Part shown: piece by piece, positions 9,260 through 20,829 of the stretch | Layout of the letters: every line of letters begins with the position of its first letter | Numbering within the stretch: the stretch's first letter is position 1 | NCBI RefSeq assembly: GCF_024970185.1 | Contig: NZ_CP103965.1 | Location: 6,405,001 to 6,469,000, forward strand | DNA length: 64,000 nucleotides | Reading direction: 5' to 3' | DNA from: Pseudomonas sp. N3-W | Lineage (GTDB): Bacteria; Pseudomonadota; Gammaproteobacteria; Pseudomonadales; Pseudomonadaceae | The notes under the pieces: model-generated | Seen by the model: the letters and a program-made list of their open reading frames with translations, nothing else | What the model was told of the DNA's origin: nothing | The model's database searches: none | Translations under genes and position numbers: made by a program

Positions 9260-10498
9260 TCAGACGCGGGTAGGCACCGGCAGCGGTGCTGCCAGCAAGC
9301 GCTCATCGAGCAACACCAGGCCTTCCTGGAACAGCTGGTTACTGCGCTCGGTGTCACCGAGCTGCGCCAGCAACCGCGCAAGTTCCGCACAGGCTTCTGG
9401 GTTACGCTGCAAACGCAGACTGCTTTCCAGATAATCCCGGGCTTTACCCCACAGGCTGCTTTGAAGGCATAGACGACCCAAGGTCAGCAACAGGCTTGGG
9501 TCCGCCGGATGTGCCTTGAGCCAACCCTCGGCTGTTTGCAGTTGCCGCGCCGGATCGCTACCGCGAACCAGACCGTACAAGCGGGCAAGATGGCTGTCGT
9601 AGTTGCGCTTGAGTGCGGCCCGCAGAACTTCTTCGGCTTCGACCTGCGCCCCCAGTTGCCGTAGCTGCTCGGCATAGGCCAGCACCAGCTGCGGCTCCTG
9701 ACGCTGGGGCGAGGTAAGTTGCTCCCACGAACGCTTGAGAGACTGCAACCGCGCGGCTCCGTCCTCTTCGCGGTGCGCGGCCAGGCTGAGATTTGCACCC
9801 CAGGCCCGACGCTCCAGTTCCGCCAGTTCTGTCGACGGCAGGACCTTGTCCTTGCGCAGTTCCGGCAGCAGGCGAATCACTGCCGGCCAGTCGCCGCGCT
9901 GCTGATGCAGACGCTGCAACTGGCGCAGGGTCTGCACGCTATGCGGGTGACGCTCATGCATGGCTTGCAGGGTTGCCAAGGCGCCATCCGTGTCACCGCG
10001 ATCGGTCTGCAATTGTGCGTGGCTCAAGGCAATCGCCAGTTCGGCCTGGGGTTGGCGCTCAAGCGCGCGCTCCAGCAGGCTGTCGCATTCCTCGTAATGA
10101 CCCTGTTCGTTCGCCGCACGCGCGGCGCCGAGGTAGTACAGCAGCGGCTGGCGTTCGGCCTCGGCAGCGCGATGCAGATGGCGCTGGGCACTGGCCCAGC
10201 GTCCTTCGGCAAGGTCCAGCTGACCGTGTTCAATCGCCACTTGCACCCGCCGACTGCGGTTGCGCCGCGACCACGGATTGACCACACCACTTGAGGTCGT
10301 GACCAGCTCGATCAGCGCCTTGATTCCCCAGAACACCAGCCACAACACCGCCACCAGCGCCAGGGTTGCCCACAAACTCGATTCGTAGCGGAAGCTCTTG
10401 TAGGCGATCAGCACGTAACCGGAATGCTCGGCAATCGCCAGCCCCAACGCCGCTGCGGCCGCGATGACCAGGAACAGGATCACGTAGAGGCGTTTCAT
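9260..10498 (-). CDS. hemY: Heme biosynthesis-associated TPR protein HemY
   Basis: A 412-residue inner-membrane protein. Two hydrophobic segments occupy residues 3-25 and 40-62 (HemY_N: LFLVIAAAAALGLAI and TLALVAVLWLVFWGIKAL), followed by TPR-type helical repeats to the end. It is the proteobacterial HemY of the hemCDXY cluster, not the Bacillus protoporphyrinogen oxidase of the same name; its biochemical role is still uncertain. Its start overlaps the end of hemX by 4 bases (ATGA), so hemX and hemY are co-translated. Length is usual for the family. Confidence 0.92.
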   Translation of the reverse strand: MKRLYVILFLVIAAAAALGLAIAEHSGYVLIAYKSFRYESSLWATLALVAVLWLVFWGIKALIELVTTSSGVVNPWSRRNRSRRVQVAIEHGQLDLAEGRWASAQRHLHRAAEAERQPLLYYLGAARAANEQGHYEECDSLLERALERQPQAELAIALSHAQLQTDRGDTDGALATLQAMHERHPHSVQTLRQLQRLHQQRGDWPAVIRLLPELRKDKVLPSTELAELERRAWGANLSLAAHREEDGAARLQSLKRSWEQLTSPQRQEPQLVLAYAEQLRQLGAQVEAEEVLRAALKRNYDSHLARLYGLVRGSDPARQLQTAEGWLKAHPADPSLLLTLGRLCLQSSLWGKARDYLESSLRLQRNPEACAELARLLAQLGDTERSNQLFQEGLVLLDERLLAAPLPVPTRV

Positions 10499-11637
10499 GG
10501 CGTGGCCTCCTGCGCCGTGTTAGTGGCGGGTCTGGCCATTGGCTTGATGGAGTCCTCGGCATTGACGTTACGCCGCTCGAGATAAGCCTGAACCGCGCTC
10601 AGCGTGCCGGTCAGATCAGGCGTAACCACCGTCACGGGTTGCTTGCCCAGTTCCCCCACCTGCTCAAGCATCACTTTGCTTTGCGGGTTGTCCGGGTTGA
10701 AGTTGCCCTTGAGCACATCCCGCGCCTCCGTCAACGCTTGGGTGTACACCGGCGCCTGACCATTGAGCGCCGCCCACTGCGCTTGTTCCAGTGCCAGGCT
10801 CAGGGCCAGACGCACCTGGCTCAGGCCCTGGCCGGCCAGCAACGGGCGCACATTTTTATCGGCGTTGAAATCAATGCGGATGTAACGTGAAATCTTGTCC
10901 CACCACTGCTCCCAACGGCTCGCGCCATCGCCGTCGGCAGTCAGGCCGAGCAGGGATTCGCCGTGGTCTTTGTATTCGGGTGCCAGTTCCGTCAGGTTGA
11001 TCACCTGATCACGCAAGGCGCCCAATTGCAGGAACAGCCCGGTGCGGTCCGGCTGCTCTGTGCTGCGCAGCGCCACCAGGGTTTTCGCCACTTGTTCGCG
11101 GGCGGCAAAGGAACCGGGGTCGTTTTGTTCACGAAGAATTTCGTCGGCGCCCTGCACCAGTGCCTGAGCGCTGCTGATGTCCTGCAGGGCCGACAGACGC
11201 AGGCTGGCCAGACGCAGCAAGTGCTCGGCCTCAGCCAGACGCCAGTCCTTGCGGCTGGCACCCAGGACGGTTTCCAGACGCTGGTTCAAGCGCTGCTGAT
11301 CGCCTTGCAACTGCGTCACCAGGCGACTGCGGGCATCCAGTTCTTCGGCGGCGGGCAGCTGCTCCAGGCGCGCAGTCAAGCGCTGGTCGTTGAGTTTCAA
11401 ACTCTGGGCCTGATCATTCAAGGCCTGGAACTGGTTCAACTGCTGCTGGCTCTCGGCTTGCAGGTGACGCACCTGCCAGACACCCCAACCGCCCACCGCG
11501 ACACCCGCGGCGCCCAGCAACAATGCGACGATTGCCAGGCCATTGCCTCGACGCTGCACGACCGCAGGTGGAGGAGTTTCAACGGGTGCGTCCAGCACGG
11601 GTTGGGCATCATCTTTCGGCAAGGCTGTTTCGCTCAC
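10495..11637 (-). CDS. hemX: HemX membrane protein
   Basis: A 380-residue protein with a proline-rich cytoplasmic N-terminus, one transmembrane helix (about residues 33-55, IVALLLGAAGVAVGGWGVW) and then a long Gln/Leu-rich coiled-coil (about 60-150). The remainder is helical. It is routinely called uroporphyrinogen-III C-methyltransferase because the E. coli gene carried that name, but no SAM-binding tetrapyrrole methylase motif is visible, so that enzymatic label should not be trusted. It lies 16 bases after hemD and overlaps hemY, within one heme-synthesis transcript. Confidence 0.9.
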   Translation of the reverse strand: MSETALPKDDAQPVLDAPVETPPPAVVQRRGNGLAIVALLLGAAGVAVGGWGVWQVRHLQAESQQQLNQFQALNDQAQSLKLNDQRLTARLEQLPAAEELDARSRLVTQLQGDQQRLNQRLETVLGASRKDWRLAEAEHLLRLASLRLSALQDISSAQALVQGADEILREQNDPGSFAAREQVAKTLVALRSTEQPDRTGLFLQLGALRDQVINLTELAPEYKDHGESLLGLTADGDGASRWEQWWDKISRYIRIDFNADKNVRPLLAGQGLSQVRLALSLALEQAQWAALNGQAPVYTQALTEARDVLKGNFNPDNPQSKVMLEQVGELGKQPVTVVTPDLTGTLSAVQAYLERRNVNAEDSIKPMARPATNTAQEATP

Positions 11638-11653
11638 GTATCCATCCTTTGCA

Positions 11654-12421
11654 TTAGAGAACGGGCACGGGGTGCTCCCGTAACGCCGTCAGCAAAGCCG
11701 TGGCACTGGCGCCACGACAATCCACAACTGTTTGAGCCCCGGCGGCATGTGCCAGCTCGGCGACTCTGGGGCTTGGAACAAACAACGGCAGTTGCGCCAA
11801 TCGGGGCCAGGCATCGCCGGCCAATTGCCGCAGGTGCACAAAACCCTGTCCACTGCTGACCACCAGCCCGTTCAAGCGTTCCGCTTCGATCCGGTCCGGC
11901 AGCACCGCCGTCGCGTAGTGCGGCAGGCTACGACGATACAGTTCCAGATACTCGACACTAGCACCAAGCTCGCGCAAACGCTCAGCGAGCAGTTCACGCC
12001 CGCCTTCTCCGCGCAGGATCAAGACCCTCGCCCCAGGCTGCGCAATAGCCTCGCGCAAAGCCGCAAGTTCAAGCAAGGCTTCGCTGTCGTCGCCATCCGC
12101 CGGGAAGCTGACATCCAGACCATGATCATCAAGAATCTGCGCGGTCGCGGCGCCCACGGTGAACCATTTCAGGCGCGGTGGCTGCGGCCAGTACTGGCTG
12201 ACAAGCTCAACGCCGATTCTGGCTGCTGGCTTGCTGACCACAATCACCGCGCAGTAGTGATCCAGATCCTGAATCACTTTGCGCATTGTGTCAGAGGCTG
12301 CAACTGGCGCTATTTCCAAAAGCGGCAGACAACTGCTGAAAATCCCGTTTTCGGCCAGTACGTTACTCAGCGCCACCGATTCGTCGGCGGGGCGCGTGAG
12401 CAGCAGGCGCCAGTCTGTCAC
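11654..12421 (-). CDS. hemD: Uroporphyrinogen-III synthase
   Basis: A 255-residue cytoplasmic enzyme that closes and isomerises hydroxymethylbilane to uroporphyrinogen III. It starts [12 protein letters not shown], has the two alpha/beta lobes of the family, the hinge region and [20 protein letters not shown] near residue 130, then [15 protein letters not shown]. These loosely conserved patches are typical of HemD. Its start overlaps the end of hemC by 4 bases (ATGA), so both enzymes of consecutive steps are made together. Confidence 0.95.
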
Positions 12422-13359
12422 TCGTGACCTGCCTCGCCGTACACCGCTTTCAGAATATCGTCGGCGCCCTGACTCAGCAGATCTTCGGCGACTCGCACGC
12501 CCAAGGCTTCGGCATCACTGCGCGGCGCACGGGCGTCGGCACTGAGCAGCAGGCCGCCACTCGGGTCACCGACCAGACCACGCAACCAGATCTGCTCGCC
12601 TTCGAGCACGGCGTAGCAGGCGATTGGTACCTGGCAGCCGCCATTCAAGTGTTTGTTGAGCGCACGTTCGGCGGTGACGCGGGTAGCCGTGTCTACATGG
12701 TGCAGCGGGGCCAGCAGGGCGTGGATTTCGCTGTCGGCAGTGCGGCATTCGATACCCACCGCACCTTGGCCACCGGCCGGCAAACTGTCGTCGACGCTGA
12801 TTGCCGAGGTGATGCGATCCTCGAAGCCCAGACGAATCAAACCCGCCGCCGCGAGAATAATGGCGTCGTATTCGCCCGCATCGAGTTTGGCCAACCGAGT
12901 ATTGACGTTGCCGCGCAGGAAGCGGATTTGCAGATCCGGTCGGCGGGTCAGCAACTGGGCCTGACGGCGCAGGCTGGAGGTGCCGACGATGCTGCCCTCT
13001 GGCAGGGCGTCGAGGCTGGCATAGGTGTTGGAGACGAAGGCATCGCGCGGGTCTTCGCGCTCGCAGATGCAATACAGGCCAAGGCCTTCAGGGAAGTCCA
13101 TCGGCACATCTTTCATCGAGTGCACGGCGATGTCGGCTTCGTGTTCCAGCAACGCGGTTTCCAGTTCCTTGACGAACAGGCCCTTGCCGCCGATTTTCGA
13201 CAGCGGCGAGTCCAGCAGCTTGTCGCCGCGACTGACCATGGGCACCAGCGTCACCAGAAGACCAGGATGAGCCTGCTCCAGACGAGCCTTGACGTATTCG
13301 GCCTGCCAGAGGGCCAGAGCACTTTTGCGGGTGGCGATGCGGATTTCGCGAGAGGACAT
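12418..13359 (-). CDS. hemC: Porphobilinogen deaminase (hydroxymethylbilane synthase)
   Basis: A 313-residue enzyme polymerising four porphobilinogens. Hallmarks are [18 protein letters not shown] at the N-terminus, [21 protein letters not shown] with [14 protein letters not shown], and [11 protein letters not shown] near residue 240, whose Cys carries the dipyrromethane cofactor. First gene of hemC-hemD-hemX-hemY and 138 bases downstream of algR on the same strand, the conserved Pseudomonas arrangement. Confidence 0.97.
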
Positions 13360-13497: not shown

Positions 13498-14244
13498 TTA
13501 AAGCTGTTGCATCATCTTGCGCACGCCCGCCACATGACGCCGGCTGACAATCAGCGCATCGCCATTAAGGCCTTTGAGAAACAGCTGGAAGTGCCCCAGC
13601 GGCGTACGTTGCAAGCGTTCGATACGTTCACGGGCGACCAGGGCGTTGCGGTGGATACGCACGAAACGGTCGCCAAATTCGTCTTCAAGGGCCTTGAGCG
13701 GCTCGTCCAGCAGCACTTCGCCGCCTTCGTGGCGCAAGGTCACGTACTTGTGGTCGGCGATGAAATAGACCACCTGACCCAAGGGAATCAGCTCGATGCC
13801 TTTGCGGGTGCGGGCACTGATATGGCTGCGTGGACCGCTACCGGTTTCGGCGGCTGGACGGGTCAGGGCTGCGAGCTGGATACGATTGGGGCGCTCGGCC
13901 TTCTTCAAGGCTTCAAGCAGTTGCTCGGCGCGAAGCGGTTTGAGCAGATAACCGACGCCACTGGCCTGCAAGGCTTCAATGGCAAATTCTTCGGGGCTGG
14001 TGCAAAACACCACGGCGGGCGGTGATTCGCGCTCGCACAACCGGGCAGCCACCTGCAGGCCGTCGAGGCCGGGCATGCGGATATCGAGCAAAACGATATC
14101 CGGCTTATGGCTGTCGATCAGCGCCAACGCCTCTTCGCCGTTCGTGGCGCTGGGCTCCAGGACACTGTATCCCTCGAGCTCGCCGACCATGCGGTTCAGG
14201 CGCTCGCGGACCAGGGGTTCGTCATCAACGATCAGGACATTCAT
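13498..14244 (-). CDS. algR: LytTR response regulator AlgR
   Basis: A 248-residue regulator. The receiver domain (1-115) has the acidic pair D7/D8 and phospho-acceptor D54 in VLLDIRMPG, and Lys in YLLKPLRAEQ. The LytTR DNA-binding domain covers about residues 140-245 (RKGIELIPLGQVVYFIADHKYVT split around residue 165; RIHRNALVAR). In P. aeruginosa AlgR controls alginate, twitching motility and rhamnolipid genes and is paired with the sensor AlgZ/FimS. The chosen start overlaps (ATGA) the stop of an upstream frame that looks like the very end of AlgZ; the rest of that sensor gene is missing here. A longer in-frame start would add 20 residues lacking homology. Confidence 0.95.
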   Translation of the reverse strand: MNVLIVDDEPLVRERLNRMVGELEGYSVLEPSATNGEEALALIDSHKPDIVLLDIRMPGLDGLQVAARLCERESPPAVVFCTSPEEFAIEALQASGVGYLLKPLRAEQLLEALKKAERPNRIQLAALTRPAAETGSGPRSHISARTRKGIELIPLGQVVYFIADHKYVTLRHEGGEVLLDEPLKALEDEFGDRFVRIHRNALVARERIERLQRTPLGHFQLFLKGLNGDALIVSRRHVAGVRKMMQQL

Positions 14245-14375
14245 ATTGCGCTGGATTCCTGCGTGAGTCTCGCACAAGGATAGCGTAGACAGGTGAAGTG
14301 ACATCCGTCACCGCGATCCACGCTAAGACTGGCGCGAGGGCCAAAAAGTGCCGCGAGACCAGCGGCTAAATTTTC
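14241..14375 (-). pseudogene. algZ: 3' remnant of sensor kinase gene algZ (fimS)
   Basis: A frame ending in TGA that overlaps the algR ATG reads GLAALFGPRASLSVDRGDG and then CHFTCLRYPCARLTQ. That is how the ATPase domain of LytS/AlgZ kinases ends (a RLAALFGPRASL-like helix then a strand of the last sheet). Only about 40-45 codons can be recognised; upstream codons in the same frame (to 14561) do not look like a kinase, and the whole gap to argH is 458 bases, far too short for a roughly 350-residue AlgZ. Seen: the C-terminal text and the coupling to algR. Inferred: deletion of the rest of the gene. Confidence 0.6.
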
Positions 14376-14702
14376 ATCTGCCGGGCACTGGGCGGCCCGG
14401 GCCTGCGTTCGCGAGGCGTCGCCATAGGGTTTGCCGATACACAATATGAACACCCCCCTCTTCTTATAGTCAGCCGCCGTTCTAAACGCACGCTGTTCTA
14501 CTGTCCAACTGTAGACGGTTGCCGGGACGATATTGCTCAATTGAAAAATATCGTTGCGCATTTTCCGCAGGCTTCACCTCGAGTATGGCCCCAGTGATGA
14601 GAAAAAAACGTATCGACCAGTGTCAGCGACAGGATTGGCAACCCTGTTATTATTCGCAACAGCTTTAAACGCCATCTTTCTTCAGCCGATACGAGCGAAT
14701 TC
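14376..14702. other. Gap between algZ remnant and argH
   Basis: No supportable gene. It is more AT-rich than its surroundings, especially at 14440-14700, and must contain the argH promoter. The deletion junction of algZ presumably lies near its left end. A short frame on the minus strand to 14561 has no recognisable family. Confidence 0.5.
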
Positions 14703-16097
14703 ATGAGCACTGACAAGACCAATCAGTCCTGGGGCGGCCGCTTCAGTGAACCCGTGGACGCCTTCGTCGCCCGCTTCACCGCCTCCGTCACCTTCGACCA
14801 GCGTCTGTATCGCCACGACATCATGGGCTCCATCGCCCACGCCACGATGCTGGCCAAGGTCGGCGTGCTGACCGATGCAGAGCGCGACAGCATTGCCGAT
14901 GGCCTGAAGACCATCCAGGGCGAAATCGAGGCCGGCCAGTTCGACTGGCGCATCGACCTGGAAGACGTGCACATGAACATCGAAGCGCGCCTGACCGACC
15001 GCATCGGCGTGACCGGTAAAAAGCTCCACACCGGCCGTAGCCGGAATGACCAGGTCGCCACCGACATCCGTCTGTGGCTGCGCGACGAGATCGACCTGAT
15101 CCTGGCCGAAATCACTCGCCTGCAAAAAGGCCTGCTGGAACAGGCCGAGCGCGAAGCCGGCAGCATCATGCCTGGCTTCACGCACCTGCAAACCGCACAG
15201 CCAGTGACCTTCGGGCATCACATGCTGGCCTGGTTCGAAATGCTCAGCCGCGACTACGAGCGTCTGGTGGATTGCCGCAAGCGCACCAACCGCATGCCGC
15301 TGGGCAGCGCCGCGCTGGCGGGCACCACCTACCCGATCGATCGCGAATACACCGCGCAGTTGCTGGGCTTCGACGCCGTCGGTGGCAACTCGCTGGACAA
15401 CGTCTCGGACCGCGACTTCGCCATCGAATTCTGCTCGGCCGCCAGCATCGCGATGATGCACCTGTCGCGCTTCTCCGAAGAGCTGGTGCTGTGGACCAGC
15501 GCGCAATTCCAGTTCATCGATCTGCCGGACCGCTTCTGCACTGGCAGCTCGATCATGCCGCAAAAGAAGAACCCGGACGTGCCGGAGCTGGTTCGCGGCA
15601 AGACTGGCCGCGTGTTTGGCGCACTGATGGGCCTGCTGACCCTGATGAAAGGCCAGCCGCTGGCCTACAACAAGGACAACCAGGAAGACAAGGAACCGCT
15701 GTTCGACGCCGCCGACACCCTGCGCGATTCGCTGCGGGCATTTGCCGACATGATCCCGGCGATCAAACCCAAGCACGCGGTGATGCGCGAAGCAGCCCTG
15801 CGTGGCTTCTCAACCGCCACTGACCTGGCGGACTACCTGGTACGCCGTGGCCTGCCGTTCCGCGACTGCCACGAAATCGTTGGCCACGCGGTGAAATACG
15901 GCGTGGAAAGCGGCAAGGACCTGGCCGAAATGAGCCTGGAAGAACTGCGCAAGTTCAGCGACCAGATCGATCAGGACGTATTTGCGGTGCTGACCCTGGA
16001 AGGCTCGGTGAATGCGCGCGACCATATCGGCGGGACTGCGCCGGCGCAGGTCAAGAAGGCTGTGGCTCGCGGTCAGGCGCTGATCGCAATCCGCTAA
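14703..16097 (+). CDS. argH: Argininosuccinate lyase
   Basis: A 464-residue cytoplasmic enzyme splitting argininosuccinate to arginine and fumarate, the last step of arginine synthesis. It starts with the family text [14 protein letters not shown], has [13 protein letters not shown] near residue 110, [16 protein letters not shown] near 160 and the fumarase-superfamily signature [11 protein letters not shown] at about 281-291. Full length and intact. Transcribed away from the algR-hem block. Confidence 0.97.
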
Positions 16098-17982: not shown

Positions 17983-20829
17983 ATGACCCGCACCCATGAA
18001 ATCCGCCCCGATCTGGACGAGGGAATCGACCGCAAGGTACTCAGCCAACTGCGCGCACGTTTTCTCAAGCTCAACGAAGGCCGCATGGCCCGCGCCATGG
18101 AAGGGCTATCGACCCGTCAGCAAGGCGTCCTGACCCTGCTGCCGCTGTTTTTCCACGTCAATCATCCGCTGTTGCCCGGCTACGTCTCCGGCAGCACCCC
18201 GGCGGGCCTGTCGAATTTCGAGCCCGACGCCAACGTCCTCGCCGAAGCCCAGCGCCTGACCCGCTCGTTCTCCTACAAGACCCGGCACGGCAGCAATCCC
18301 CCGCGACCGATCCACGGCCTGTTCCTGATGGGCAGCCTCGGCACCCTGGCGCAGGCCGATCAAAGCGACATGGACGTGTGGGTCTGCCATGCACCGGACC
18401 TCAGCGAAAACGAACTGGCCGAACTGCGCAAAAAGTGCCAACTGCTGGAAGTCTGGGCCGCCAGCCAGGGCGCCGAGGCGCATTTCTTCATGATCGACCC
18501 GAGCCGTTTCGTGCGGGGCGAGCGCGACACGCAACTGAGTTCGGAAGACTGCGGCACCACCCAGCACTATCTGTTGCTGGACGAGTTTTACCGCACGGCC
18601 ATCTGGCTCGCCGGACGCACGCCGATCTGGTGGCTGGTGCCGGTCTACGAAGAGTCCGGCTACGACCAGTACACCCACACGCTGATTTCCAAGCGTTTTA
18701 TCCGCGCCGACGAAACGCTCGATCTGGGGCATCTGGCGCACATTCCGCCGGGCGAATTCATCGGTGCCGGGCTCTGGCAGTTGTTCAAGGGCATCGAGTC
18801 GCCCTACAAGTCGGTGCTCAAGCTGCTGCTGACCGAGGTCTATGCCAGCGAACACCCCAAGGTGCAGTGCCTGAGCCTGCGCTTCAAACGGGCGGTGTTT
18901 GCCAACCAGCTGGACCTCGACGAACTCGACCCGTACATCGTGGTATACCGGCGCATCGAGGAGTACCTGACCGCCCGTGGCGAGCCGGAACGGCTGGAGC
19001 TGGTGCGCCGAGCGCTGTACCTGAAGGTCAATCGCAAGCTGACCGGCAACAGCAGTCGCACCCAGAGCTGGCAGCGTTCGCTGCTGGAGCGCCTGGCCCA
19101 CGAGTGGCATTGGGATCAGCGACAACTGGCGCTGCTCGACAGTCGCAGCCAGTGGAAAGTGCGCCAGGTCAGCGCCGAGCGCCGGGCGCTGGTCAACGAA
19201 CTGAATTACAGCTACCGCTTCCTGACCCAATTCGCCCGCACCGAACAAACCGTCAGCCTGATCAACAAGCGCGACCTCAATGTGCTGGGTCGCCGGCTGT
19301 ACGCCGCTTTCGAGCGCAAGGCCGACAAGGTCGAATTCATCAACCCCGGCATCGCCCCGGACCTGGCCGAAGACACCTTGACGCTGGTACAGGCGCCGAA
19401 CAAAAAGGAACCGGGACAAACCCAGTGGGGCCTGTACAACGGCAGCCTGAGTGCCCATGAATGGGAGCACTTCGCGCCGATCAAGCGCAGCCGTCAGTTG
19501 CTGGAACTGCTGACCTGGTGTCACCGCAACGGCGTGATCGACAGCAGCACCCGGCTGGCCTTGCACCCTGGCACCAGCGACCTGAGCGAGTTCGAACTGT
19601 TCAACCTGCTTGGCAGCCTGCAACAGAGCATCGCCCTGCCCCTGGCCACTGTCGCCGAAGAGCCGCTGCTGCGCGCCAGCGTGCCGAGCGAAGTGCTGAT
19701 CCTGGTGAACGTCGGCGTTGATCCGCTCAAGCATCATCGCGACCTGAATATCCTGATGACCACCGAACGCACCGACTCCCTGAGCTACGCCGGCGTGCGG
19801 GAAAATCTGGTGCTGACGCTCGATCAGGTCACCCTTAACAGCTGGAACGAAGTGCTGGTCAACCGCTTCGACGGGCCTCACGCCCTGCTCGACTGCCTGT
19901 GCGACTACCTCAACAATTTGCCAAAGGGCGCCCAGCAACCGCGTTTGCGGGTCCGTTGTTTTTGCCACAACCGCGCGCAATTCATCGCGCAGCGGGTCGA
20001 GGAAATTCTCGACACTGCGCAGAATCTGCTGCTGAGCAACCTCAATCACCGCTACCTGGTGCAGGTCCAGCAGCATTATCACGTACTGGAACTGGTGCCC
20101 GGCCAGGTCAACCACGTCGCCCTGGCCACCCTGCCTGCGCTGTTCGATTACCTCGGGGAAGAGCTGGCGAGCTACAGCCCGCTGCACCTGGACCCGATGG
20201 CCCTGGAAGAACACGACTTGGCGCTGATCCTGCCCATGGGTCAGCCGGAGTGCGTGCAAGTGTTCTACCGAATCAACGAGCAGCAGGCCGATTTGTATGT
20301 ACTGGATGAGTTCAACGCCCTGTGGCAACAGCGCCTGCCCTTCCACGATGAGCAAAGCCTGCTGGTGCCGCTACAACGTTTCCTGCAATCGATACTCTAT
20401 CGCCGGGACGCGCTGTTACCAATGGACGCCGCCCAGCCCCTGAGCCTCGACACGTTGTATTACCAACTGTTGCCATCCGGCCCTGGACGCGCGCGGCGAG
20501 TCGAAGCCCGGCCAGCGCCGCAGACGCCGGTCAACAAGCCGTTCTACGACGTACAGGCGATCATCGGCAAAGCCGCACCGGGACAGGTGCAGGTCACGCT
20601 GTATTGCAATCAACGGGAATTTTCAGAGCTGGAGCATGGTGACCAGCTGTTCAGCGTGGTCGCCCGGCAAATCATCGAACAACGCCGGGAGACCGAACGC
20701 TATCGCTGCTACATCACCGACCTGGACCTGTCGGGCCTGCTCGGTGATGGTCAGAGTTCAAGCAATCTGTACCTGCGTTACAAGGCCGACCTTGAGCGCG
20801 CACTGAACGAGGCGCTCGAACAGGTCTGA
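17983..20829 (+). CDS. cyaA: Class I adenylate cyclase
   Basis: A 948-residue enzyme making cAMP from ATP. The N-terminal catalytic half holds the enterobacterial-type cyclase motifs GLFLMGSLGTLAQADQSDMD and DVWVCHAPDL near residue 110-140, with HYLLLDEFYRTAIWLAGRTP near 190 and WWLVPVYEESGYDQY. The C-terminal half corresponds to the regulatory domain that in E. coli responds to glucose-PTS EIIA. Pseudomonads lack that sugar PTS control, so the input may differ. Gene intact; ends 7 bases from the stop of rnk on the other strand, with no visible terminator. Confidence 0.96.
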   Translation: MTRTHEIRPDLDEGIDRKVLSQLRARFLKLNEGRMARAMEGLSTRQQGVLTLLPLFFHVNHPLLPGYVSGSTPAGLSNFEPDANVLAEAQRLTRSFSYKTRHGSNPPRPIHGLFLMGSLGTLAQADQSDMDVWVCHAPDLSENELAELRKKCQLLEVWAASQGAEAHFFMIDPSRFVRGERDTQLSSEDCGTTQHYLLLDEFYRTAIWLAGRTPIWWLVPVYEESGYDQYTHTLISKRFIRADETLDLGHLAHIPPGEFIGAGLWQLFKGIESPYKSVLKLLLTEVYASEHPKVQCLSLRFKRAVFANQLDLDELDPYIVVYRRIEEYLTARGEPERLELVRRALYLKVNRKLTGNSSRTQSWQRSLLERLAHEWHWDQRQLALLDSRSQWKVRQVSAERRALVNELNYSYRFLTQFARTEQTVSLINKRDLNVLGRRLYAAFERKADKVEFINPGIAPDLAEDTLTLVQAPNKKEPGQTQWGLYNGSLSAHEWEHFAPIKRSRQLLELLTWCHRNGVIDSSTRLALHPGTSDLSEFELFNLLGSLQQSIALPLATVAEEPLLRASVPSEVLILVNVGVDPLKHHRDLNILMTTERTDSLSYAGVRENLVLTLDQVTLNSWNEVLVNRFDGPHALLDCLCDYLNNLPKGAQQPRLRVRCFCHNRAQFIAQRVEEILDTAQNLLLSNLNHRYLVQVQQHYHVLELVPGQVNHVALATLPALFDYLGEELASYSPLHLDPMALEEHDLALILPMGQPECVQVFYRINEQQADLYVLDEFNALWQQRLPFHDEQSLLVPLQRFLQSILYRRDALLPMDAAQPLSLDTLYYQLLPSGPGRARRVEARPAPQTPVNKPFYDVQAIIGKAAPGQVQVTLYCNQREFSELEHGDQLFSVVARQIIEQRRETERYRCYITDLDLSGLLGDGQSSSNLYLRYKADLERALNEALEQV

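Follow-up and report, generated by a model that had tools for sequence, protein, structure and literature searches.

Recurrent loss of the AlgZ kinase gene beside algR in Pseudomonas, with a putative algR promoter in the surviving 3' end and a diverged AlgR receiver

The window analyzed here, a 64,000-nucleotide stretch of the genome of Pseudomonas sp. N3-W, contains the gene of the response regulator AlgR (13498..14244, minus strand, ATG at 14244) and its divergent neighbor argH (14703..16097, plus strand; Pfam PF00206 and PF14698), separated by a gap of 458 bases. The AlgR protein contains a receiver (REC) and a LytTR domain (PF00072, 2e-27, and PF04397, 2.3e-20, respectively) and possesses the acid pocket residues D7, D8 and D54 (codon at 14085-14083) along with K102. 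The genes following algR, which we take to be hemC and then, judging from open frames, hemD-hemX-hemY, lie at 9260-13359 (minus strand), and a frame beyond argH (17983-20829, plus strand) presumably encodes a cyaA-like class I adenylate cyclase. The argH side of the gap includes a block conserved in alignments (14638..14700, no strand assigned) which, from its position, is presumed to be the argH promoter.

The minus strand of the gap bears two pieces of algZ (fimS). With the 360-aa AlgZ of a relative (L006) as the query, residues 276-360 matched 14244-14501 at 65% identity (E 3.5e-26), which is far above the chance level, and residues 222-249 matched 14485-14568 at 68% (E 5.5e-4). The C-terminal remnant (14241..14501, minus strand, codons ~276-360 and the stop) ends in the old algZ stop codon TGA (14243-14241), which shares the sequence ATGA with the algR start; the internal remnant (14485..14568, minus strand, codons ~222-249) lies in another frame. 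At the DNA level, the pieces match gap bases 229-458 (79%) and 137-205 (87%), numbered from argH, and comparison with the intact locus of G006 places the deletions at algZ codons 1-222 and ~246-284, with which the membrane sensor, the H-box and the N-box (LLENALIYG, in the missing codons ~246-284) are gone. Pfam detects no domain in the 106-aa open frame of the remnant. The locus thus retains the C-terminal AlgZ/FimS homology beside algR but neither the His_kinase domain PF06580 with its H-box nor the N-box and, judged by the absence of these boxes, the kinase is dead. The same eroded structure is common to a group of 92 genomes around the window. The first-pass annotation had described algZ as cut to a 3' remnant beside an intact algR that retains D54, with an ATGA overlap and a 458-base gap to argH at these same coordinates, all of which holds, but it put the remnant at about 40 codons, well below its actual extent, and it missed both the putative algR promoter inside the surviving 3' end and the divergence of the AlgR receiver, which are described below.

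The extent of algZ loss was assessed in 298 genomes of the genus, each representing a different species and sampled evenly out of a larger group. AlgR is present in all but one of these, the exception being a genome of 73% completeness (G223), and in each of the other 297 the stretch between algR and argH was inspected (in G232, AlgR is split over two contigs, and one piece was used). AlgZ is found in 89 of the 297 genomes, with gaps of 1157-1482 bases, and is missing from 208 (about 70%), with gaps of 295-656 bases. Given that the order argH-algZ-algR, assumed in the first-pass annotation to be usual in pseudomonads, is confined to this minority of AlgR-bearing genomes, algZ loss is both widespread and repeated. 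On the tree of algR and argH, the genomes lacking AlgZ form 4 clades, namely 156 genomes including that of the window, 49 genomes, the pair G146 and G161, and G204 alone, whereas the argH-only tree yields 10 maximal clades and the tree of argH, LytTR and hemC yields 7, with several weak nodes. Because the trees disagree and several nodes are weak, we count at least 4 losses and, depending on the tree, up to 10. The 156-genome group is monophyletic on the algR and argH tree (support 0.837) but split on the two other trees, so that just one loss within it could not be upheld. At the family level, PF06580, a domain that is not specific to AlgZ, occurs in 18 of 19 genera (45 of 59 genomes), a spread which suggests that the presence of AlgZ is ancestral. 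In genus g13, three genomes without PF06580 are likewise without an AlgR match.

A set of 80 loci from named species and strains, which overlaps the genus set, is evenly divided into 40 with AlgZ (judged by a match longer than 300 residues) and 40 without. The former include P. tremae, P. viridiflava p4.B4, P. fuscovaginae, P. jinjuensis, Stutzerimonas and P. oryzihabitans, and the latter include three P. fluorescens isolates, P. brassicacearum, P. jessenii, P. frederiksbergensis, P. lundensis, P. putida W15Oct28, P. entomophila, P. mosselii, P. quercus and Azotobacter chroococcum. Two isolates labelled P. viridiflava (p4.B4 with and p11.D4 without AlgZ) have gaps of 1206 bases with the gene and 501 without it, and one of the two labels may be wrong. 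In Azotobacter chroococcum, as in four genomes from genus g17 (L408, L410-L413), algR stands without AlgZ at the locus, and the gap measures 229 or 483 bases; PF06580 is absent from all four g17 genomes, one of which shares the receiver stretch and the upstream sequence with A. chroococcum. For A. vinelandii, a table in the accessible part of a 2025 review gives AlgZ/FimS as the cognate sensor of AlgR (PMC12350332).

The part of algZ adjoining algR is strongly constrained. In the gap alignment of the 92-genome group, gap bases 351-456 are unchanged in length in all 92 genomes, and mean diversity at codon positions 1, 2 and 3 is 0.073, 0.025 and 0.065 over bases 351-400 and 0.019, 0.022 and 0.014 over bases 401-456. 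Just upstream, over bases 229-350, the corresponding values are 0.316, 0.358 and 0.330, and lengths differ in 76 of the 92 genomes, in 64 of them by frame-breaking amounts. For comparison, pairwise identity at fourfold sites is 0.65 over 43 sites of algR and 0.76 over 125 sites of argH. Because all codon positions are nearly invariant and free of indels in this block while the adjoining part of the remnant drifts, the last 108 bases of algZ (14245..14352, minus strand), which extend across the leader as far as the algR start codon, are constrained as DNA rather than as a peptide.

The edge of this constraint is sharp and falls at -108, that is, at the -35 box of a putative AlgU-dependent algR promoter, GCACTT-N17-TCTTA, located at -107 to -80 from the ATG (GCACTT, 14346..14351, and, after 17 bases, TCTTA, 14324..14328, both minus strand). 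According to the accessible part of a review, the AlgU promoter of algR in P. aeruginosa is GCACTT-N17-TCTGA, with its start at about -73 from the ATG (PMC4064291); the site in the window occupies the corresponding position and differs by one base; promoters within algZ/fimS are reported, in the available text of three sources, to serve algR alone and to respond to AlgU and RpoS (PMC13001225, PMC8787478, PMC10134789), with RpoS input at PalgR stated in one of them (PMC10134789). GCACTT at -107 together with TCTnA at -84 is found in 86 of 89 genomes with AlgZ, in 156/156 of the window's group, in all of which GCACTT stands at -107, and in 3/3 of the other losers outside the 49-genome group. In intact algZ, the codons that overlie the boxes are synonymously frozen (GCA in 86/89, CTT in 88/88, AGT in 84/86), most spacer codons being close to expectation; synonymous identity in the last two 15-codon windows is 0.90 and 0.75 against an expected 0.39, and the synonymous excess averages 0.17 over the gene and 0.44 in the last 30 columns. 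The genome also encodes a MucA-type protein (PF03872), adjoined by frames that, named from the frames themselves, are algU-like and mucB-like. Taken as sequence evidence, these observations suggest that the 3' end of algZ survives because the algR promoter sits in it, in other words, the remnant appears to be kept for holding this promoter. The same block includes TATCCT (14277..14282, minus strand), which from its resemblance is a candidate -10 box of a second algR promoter, and AGGA (14257..14260, minus strand), the likely algR ribosome-binding site.

The second change concerns AlgR codons 80-105 (13930..14007, minus strand; here FCTSPEEFAIEALQASGVGYLLKPLR), which encode the end of beta4, alpha4 and beta5 and are nearly fixed where AlgZ is present and diverged where it is absent. 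In the predicted model of the protein (mean pLDDT 83.6, pTM 0.55), beta4 spans residues 77-82, alpha4 89-95, beta5 98-101 and alpha5 106-116. The signature of AlgZ-paired receivers, TAHDEFA..AFxVSAVGYLVKP, is found exactly in 82 of 89 genomes with AlgZ and in none of the 207 genomes that lack AlgZ and have a full-length AlgR; the window has TSPEEFAIEALQASGVGYLLKP instead. Aligned with the consensus of the AlgZ-bearing genomes, FCTAHDEFALEAFQVSAVGYLVKPVR, residues 80-105 show 0-3 mismatches out of 26 in the 89 genomes with AlgZ and 4-18 in the 207 without it. In the named set, the ranges touch (0-3 in the 40 loci with AlgZ, 3-16 in the 40 without), strain MWU16-30317, which lacks AlgZ, having 3 mismatches, a number also reached by the most changed AlgZ-bearing loci, so the motif is an imperfect marker. 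H84 is present in 89/89 genomes with AlgZ as opposed to 3/207 without it (39/40 and 1/40, respectively, in the named set). T82 and Y99, which we take to be equivalent to the switch residues of CheY, behave differently among the groups: T82 is replaced by alanine in 53/64 and 19/91 genomes of two groups lacking AlgZ and in G146, and Y99 by F or H in 49/64 and by H in 37/49, with Y retained in 90/91 of the window's group. In the AlgR of the window itself, T82 and Y99 are retained; the residues lost are A83, H84, F92, V94, A96 and V101. D54 is present in 297/297 genomes, and K102 in 206/207 of those without AlgZ. The AlgR of L118 (G257) is strongly diverged and, with HIGRAPEP in the region of K102, is the sole aligned loss of this lysine among 296 full-length AlgRs.

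Tree-based measures localize the acceleration. Parsimony changes in lineages with and without AlgZ number 26 and 281 at residues 81-100, 269 and 828 in REC, and 159 and 203 in LytTR, the Fisher test on these counts treating changes as independent. Relative to ArgH, tree length in lineages with and without AlgZ is 0.99 and 4.40 for REC and 1.42 and 2.29 for LytTR; over 40 site bootstraps, the acceleration is 4.45 (2.83-7.53) for REC and 1.81 (0.88-2.69) for LytTR, and that of REC relative to LytTR is 2.41 (1.27-5.17). A tree built without REC gives similar values (REC/ArgH of 0.98 and 4.64; 27 and 273 changes at 81-100). By group, REC/ArgH is 3.16 (92 genomes), 6.88 (64 genomes), 4.00 (49 genomes) and 4.87 (G204). 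In the pooled lineages without AlgZ, the receiver has evolved about 4 times faster on the ArgH scale, the changes being concentrated in alpha4, beta5 and the final part of beta4, and the LytTR domain has changed less than the receiver, in which D54 is kept.

As for the order of events, G204, which has the largest remnant (a 656-base gap), retains CTAHDEFA, and isolate PS723 (626 bases) retains TAHDEFALEAL with 4 mismatches; both fit a succession in which AlgZ would have been lost first and the receiver drifted afterwards. G071, also with a large remnant (628 bases), has 11 mismatches. Remnant size was considered as a clock of receiver change and rejected given that larger remnants come with more mismatches: in the 156-genome group, gap length and receiver mismatches rise together (Spearman 0.53), a correlation that we read as mostly a difference between two subgroups of that group.

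algZ has been lost at this locus, and taken together the results make it probable that its retained end carries the algR promoter, that AlgR became an orphan regulator under a stress promoter, and that its receiver changed after the loss of AlgZ. The 3' end of algZ would double as the algR control region; with the kinase no longer needed, the gene would have eroded down to this region and a few other stretches, and erosion would have halted at the 3' end because its deletion would harm algR expression. The AlgR dose would then follow stress, with AlgR acting as an orphan DNA-binding regulator, as it does when made from the internal promoter of P. aeruginosa. AlgZ may formerly have held the switch face of the receiver fixed, this face now being released or refitted, and the receiver would work without AlgZ either independently of phosphorylation or with phosphate from another source. 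That pseudomonads have several times converted a kinase-driven regulator into one gated differently, keeping the acid pocket with D54 while each lineage rebuilt the threonine-aromatic switch and dimer face (82-105) in a way of its own, with a new phosphate input or none and the stress promoter carrying the signal, is put forward tentatively, at slightly less than even confidence. Three observations on individual lineages count against the favored scenario. The 49-genome group has GCACTT in 0/49 genomes, with GAATCT-N16-TCT conserved near that place in 48/49, so the promoter appears to have been rebuilt there; in the same group, LytTR is also fast, with LytTR/ArgH at 3.30; and on the terminal branches leading to G146 and G161, where REC/ArgH is 0.53 and 1.99, the receiver is hardly or not at all in excess.

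The most serious competing explanation is that AlgR is still a working phospho-switch that draws on a different kinase or on small-molecule phosphodonors, with the receiver face refitted to the new input. Its main argument, which also weighs against the favored scenario, is that D54, invariant in the 208 genomes lacking AlgZ, and K102 stay fixed in an otherwise fast receiver, so that phosphorylation or metal binding may still matter; moreover, A83G, G98S and Y99F/H recur in separate groups, and P. aeruginosa AlgR is reported, in the available text, to take phosphate from phosphoramidate and CheA in vitro (PMC8787478). The replacement of the switch threonine T82 and of Y99 in the groups listed above speaks against such a switch, as does the search of the window's own genome for the kinase family PF06580, which gave 0 matches (89 of the 298 genus genomes were positive in the same search). 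Because the receiver changes differ between lineages, they look more like release than adaptation to one common new partner. On balance, a retained phospho-switch is possible, although we would not quite give it even odds.

Other explanations fare worse. Given that PilY1, the type IV pilus tip protein, acts on AlgZ in P. aeruginosa, AlgZ could have become useless after an earlier loss of PilY1, and the distribution of PF05567 agrees with this in part, the domain being found in 85/89 genomes with AlgZ, in 3/64 and 0/49 of two groups without it, and not in G204. However, the window's genome (in a protein encoded at G000:C1:5724288-5725283), 81/92 genomes of its group, G146 and G161 all keep PF05567 without AlgZ, so that losing PilY1 is no precondition for losing AlgZ; this weakens PilY1 loss as a cause, which we regard as unlikely. 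The domain PF05567 cannot tell PilY1 types apart. A small functional peptide encoded by the remnant, i.e., a kept kinase tail, is highly improbable. The remnant frame is open for 110 codons in the window and over at least 59 codons in 92/92 relatives, which counts against the favored scenario, but diversity upstream of -108 is equal at the three codon positions, third positions vary no more than first and second ones within the final 108 bases, and open stretches in the 49-genome group have a median of 35 codons and a minimum of 1; on these grounds, and given the frame-breaking lengths noted above, a peptide-coding role was rejected. Least credible of all is a sequencing or assembly artefact or, as the first-pass annotation also considered, a sensor moved elsewhere, in favor of which the analysis yielded nothing. 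The genome is complete in a single contig of 6.67 Mb, and the AlgZ search of the full genome proposed there found the relative's AlgZ only at the algR-argH locus, in two pieces, in addition to the negative PF06580 search; the proposed alignment with related strains yielded the deletion ends given above, and the like structures in 92 relatives and the absence of AlgZ from 208/297 genomes make an assembly error very unlikely.

The AlgZ/FimS-AlgR system of P. aeruginosa resembles the present one in having an AlgR with REC and LytTR domains and D54 and, in the accessible text, an AlgU promoter upstream of algR (GCACTT-N17-TCTGA) as well as promoters within algZ (PMC4064291, PMC13001225, PMC8787478), and differs in that here the kinase is missing, the -10 box is TCTTA and the motif CTAHDEFA..AFxVSAVGYLVKPV is broken. 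In P. aeruginosa, AlgR has two modes. It is phosphorylated when expressed together with the kinase; when produced from the internal AlgU/RpoS promoter, it is described in the available part of one source as unphosphorylated for the most part and as acting at nrdJ and the alginate genes (PMC10134789). The unphosphorylated mode is one state of an intact system in that species; in the window's genome, where AlgZ is concerned, it would be the only mode possible. Another published parallel is a 2025 table in which algR of P. putida KT2440 (PP_0185) is listed with algZ "nd", a table entry that the accessible text leaves without deletion structure, promoter retention or receiver change (PMC12112638). 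The literature covered, which is partial, contained no paper on AlgZ loss as such.

AlgR has been studied as half of a kinase-regulator pair, yet it occurs without AlgZ in more than two-thirds of the genus sample. Orphan response regulators in general are regulators without a linked kinase; here, by contrast, the remnant of the lost kinase and several independent losses are visible, so that the states before and after loss can be compared, residue by residue, for the hold of a kinase on its regulator. The expectation of the first-pass annotation that the locus is a natural experiment in two-component rewiring was sound. The residues seemingly held by AlgZ are A83, H84, F92 and V101, with T82 and Y99 in some groups, and those held by something else are D54 and K102. 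The locus would also be a case of a promoter inside a coding sequence that outlives its gene.

Two further elements of the gap deserve mention. The stretch E1 (CGTCTACAGTTGGACA, 14502..14517, minus strand), identified by conservation, is a second constrained stretch inside algZ: in intact genes its codons CTA, CAG and TTG hardly vary (83, 88 and 85 of ~88), and in genomes without AlgZ its distance from algR varies, with at most one mismatch in 49/49 genomes of the 49-genome group and at most two in 60/64 and 71/92 of the other two groups, a conservation that counts against the favored scenario. The algR leader contains the dyad GTGAC-N4-GTCAC (14298..14311, minus strand), a possible operator whose spacing, we presume, is like that of a CRP/Vfr site. 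GTGA-N6-TCAC occurs in 91/92, 64/64 and 8/49 genomes of the groups lacking AlgZ, in 43/89 with AlgZ, and in 5/5 Azotobacter-type loci, in which the AlgU-box pattern gave no match. An RNA hairpin in the leader was considered and set aside, the folding z-scores of 22 leaders being -1.6 to +0.6 save for two (-2.1 in Azotobacter L408 and -3.2 in G307), so we favor a dyad that functions at the DNA level. Only in the window's group is an RsmA-like GGA loop common.
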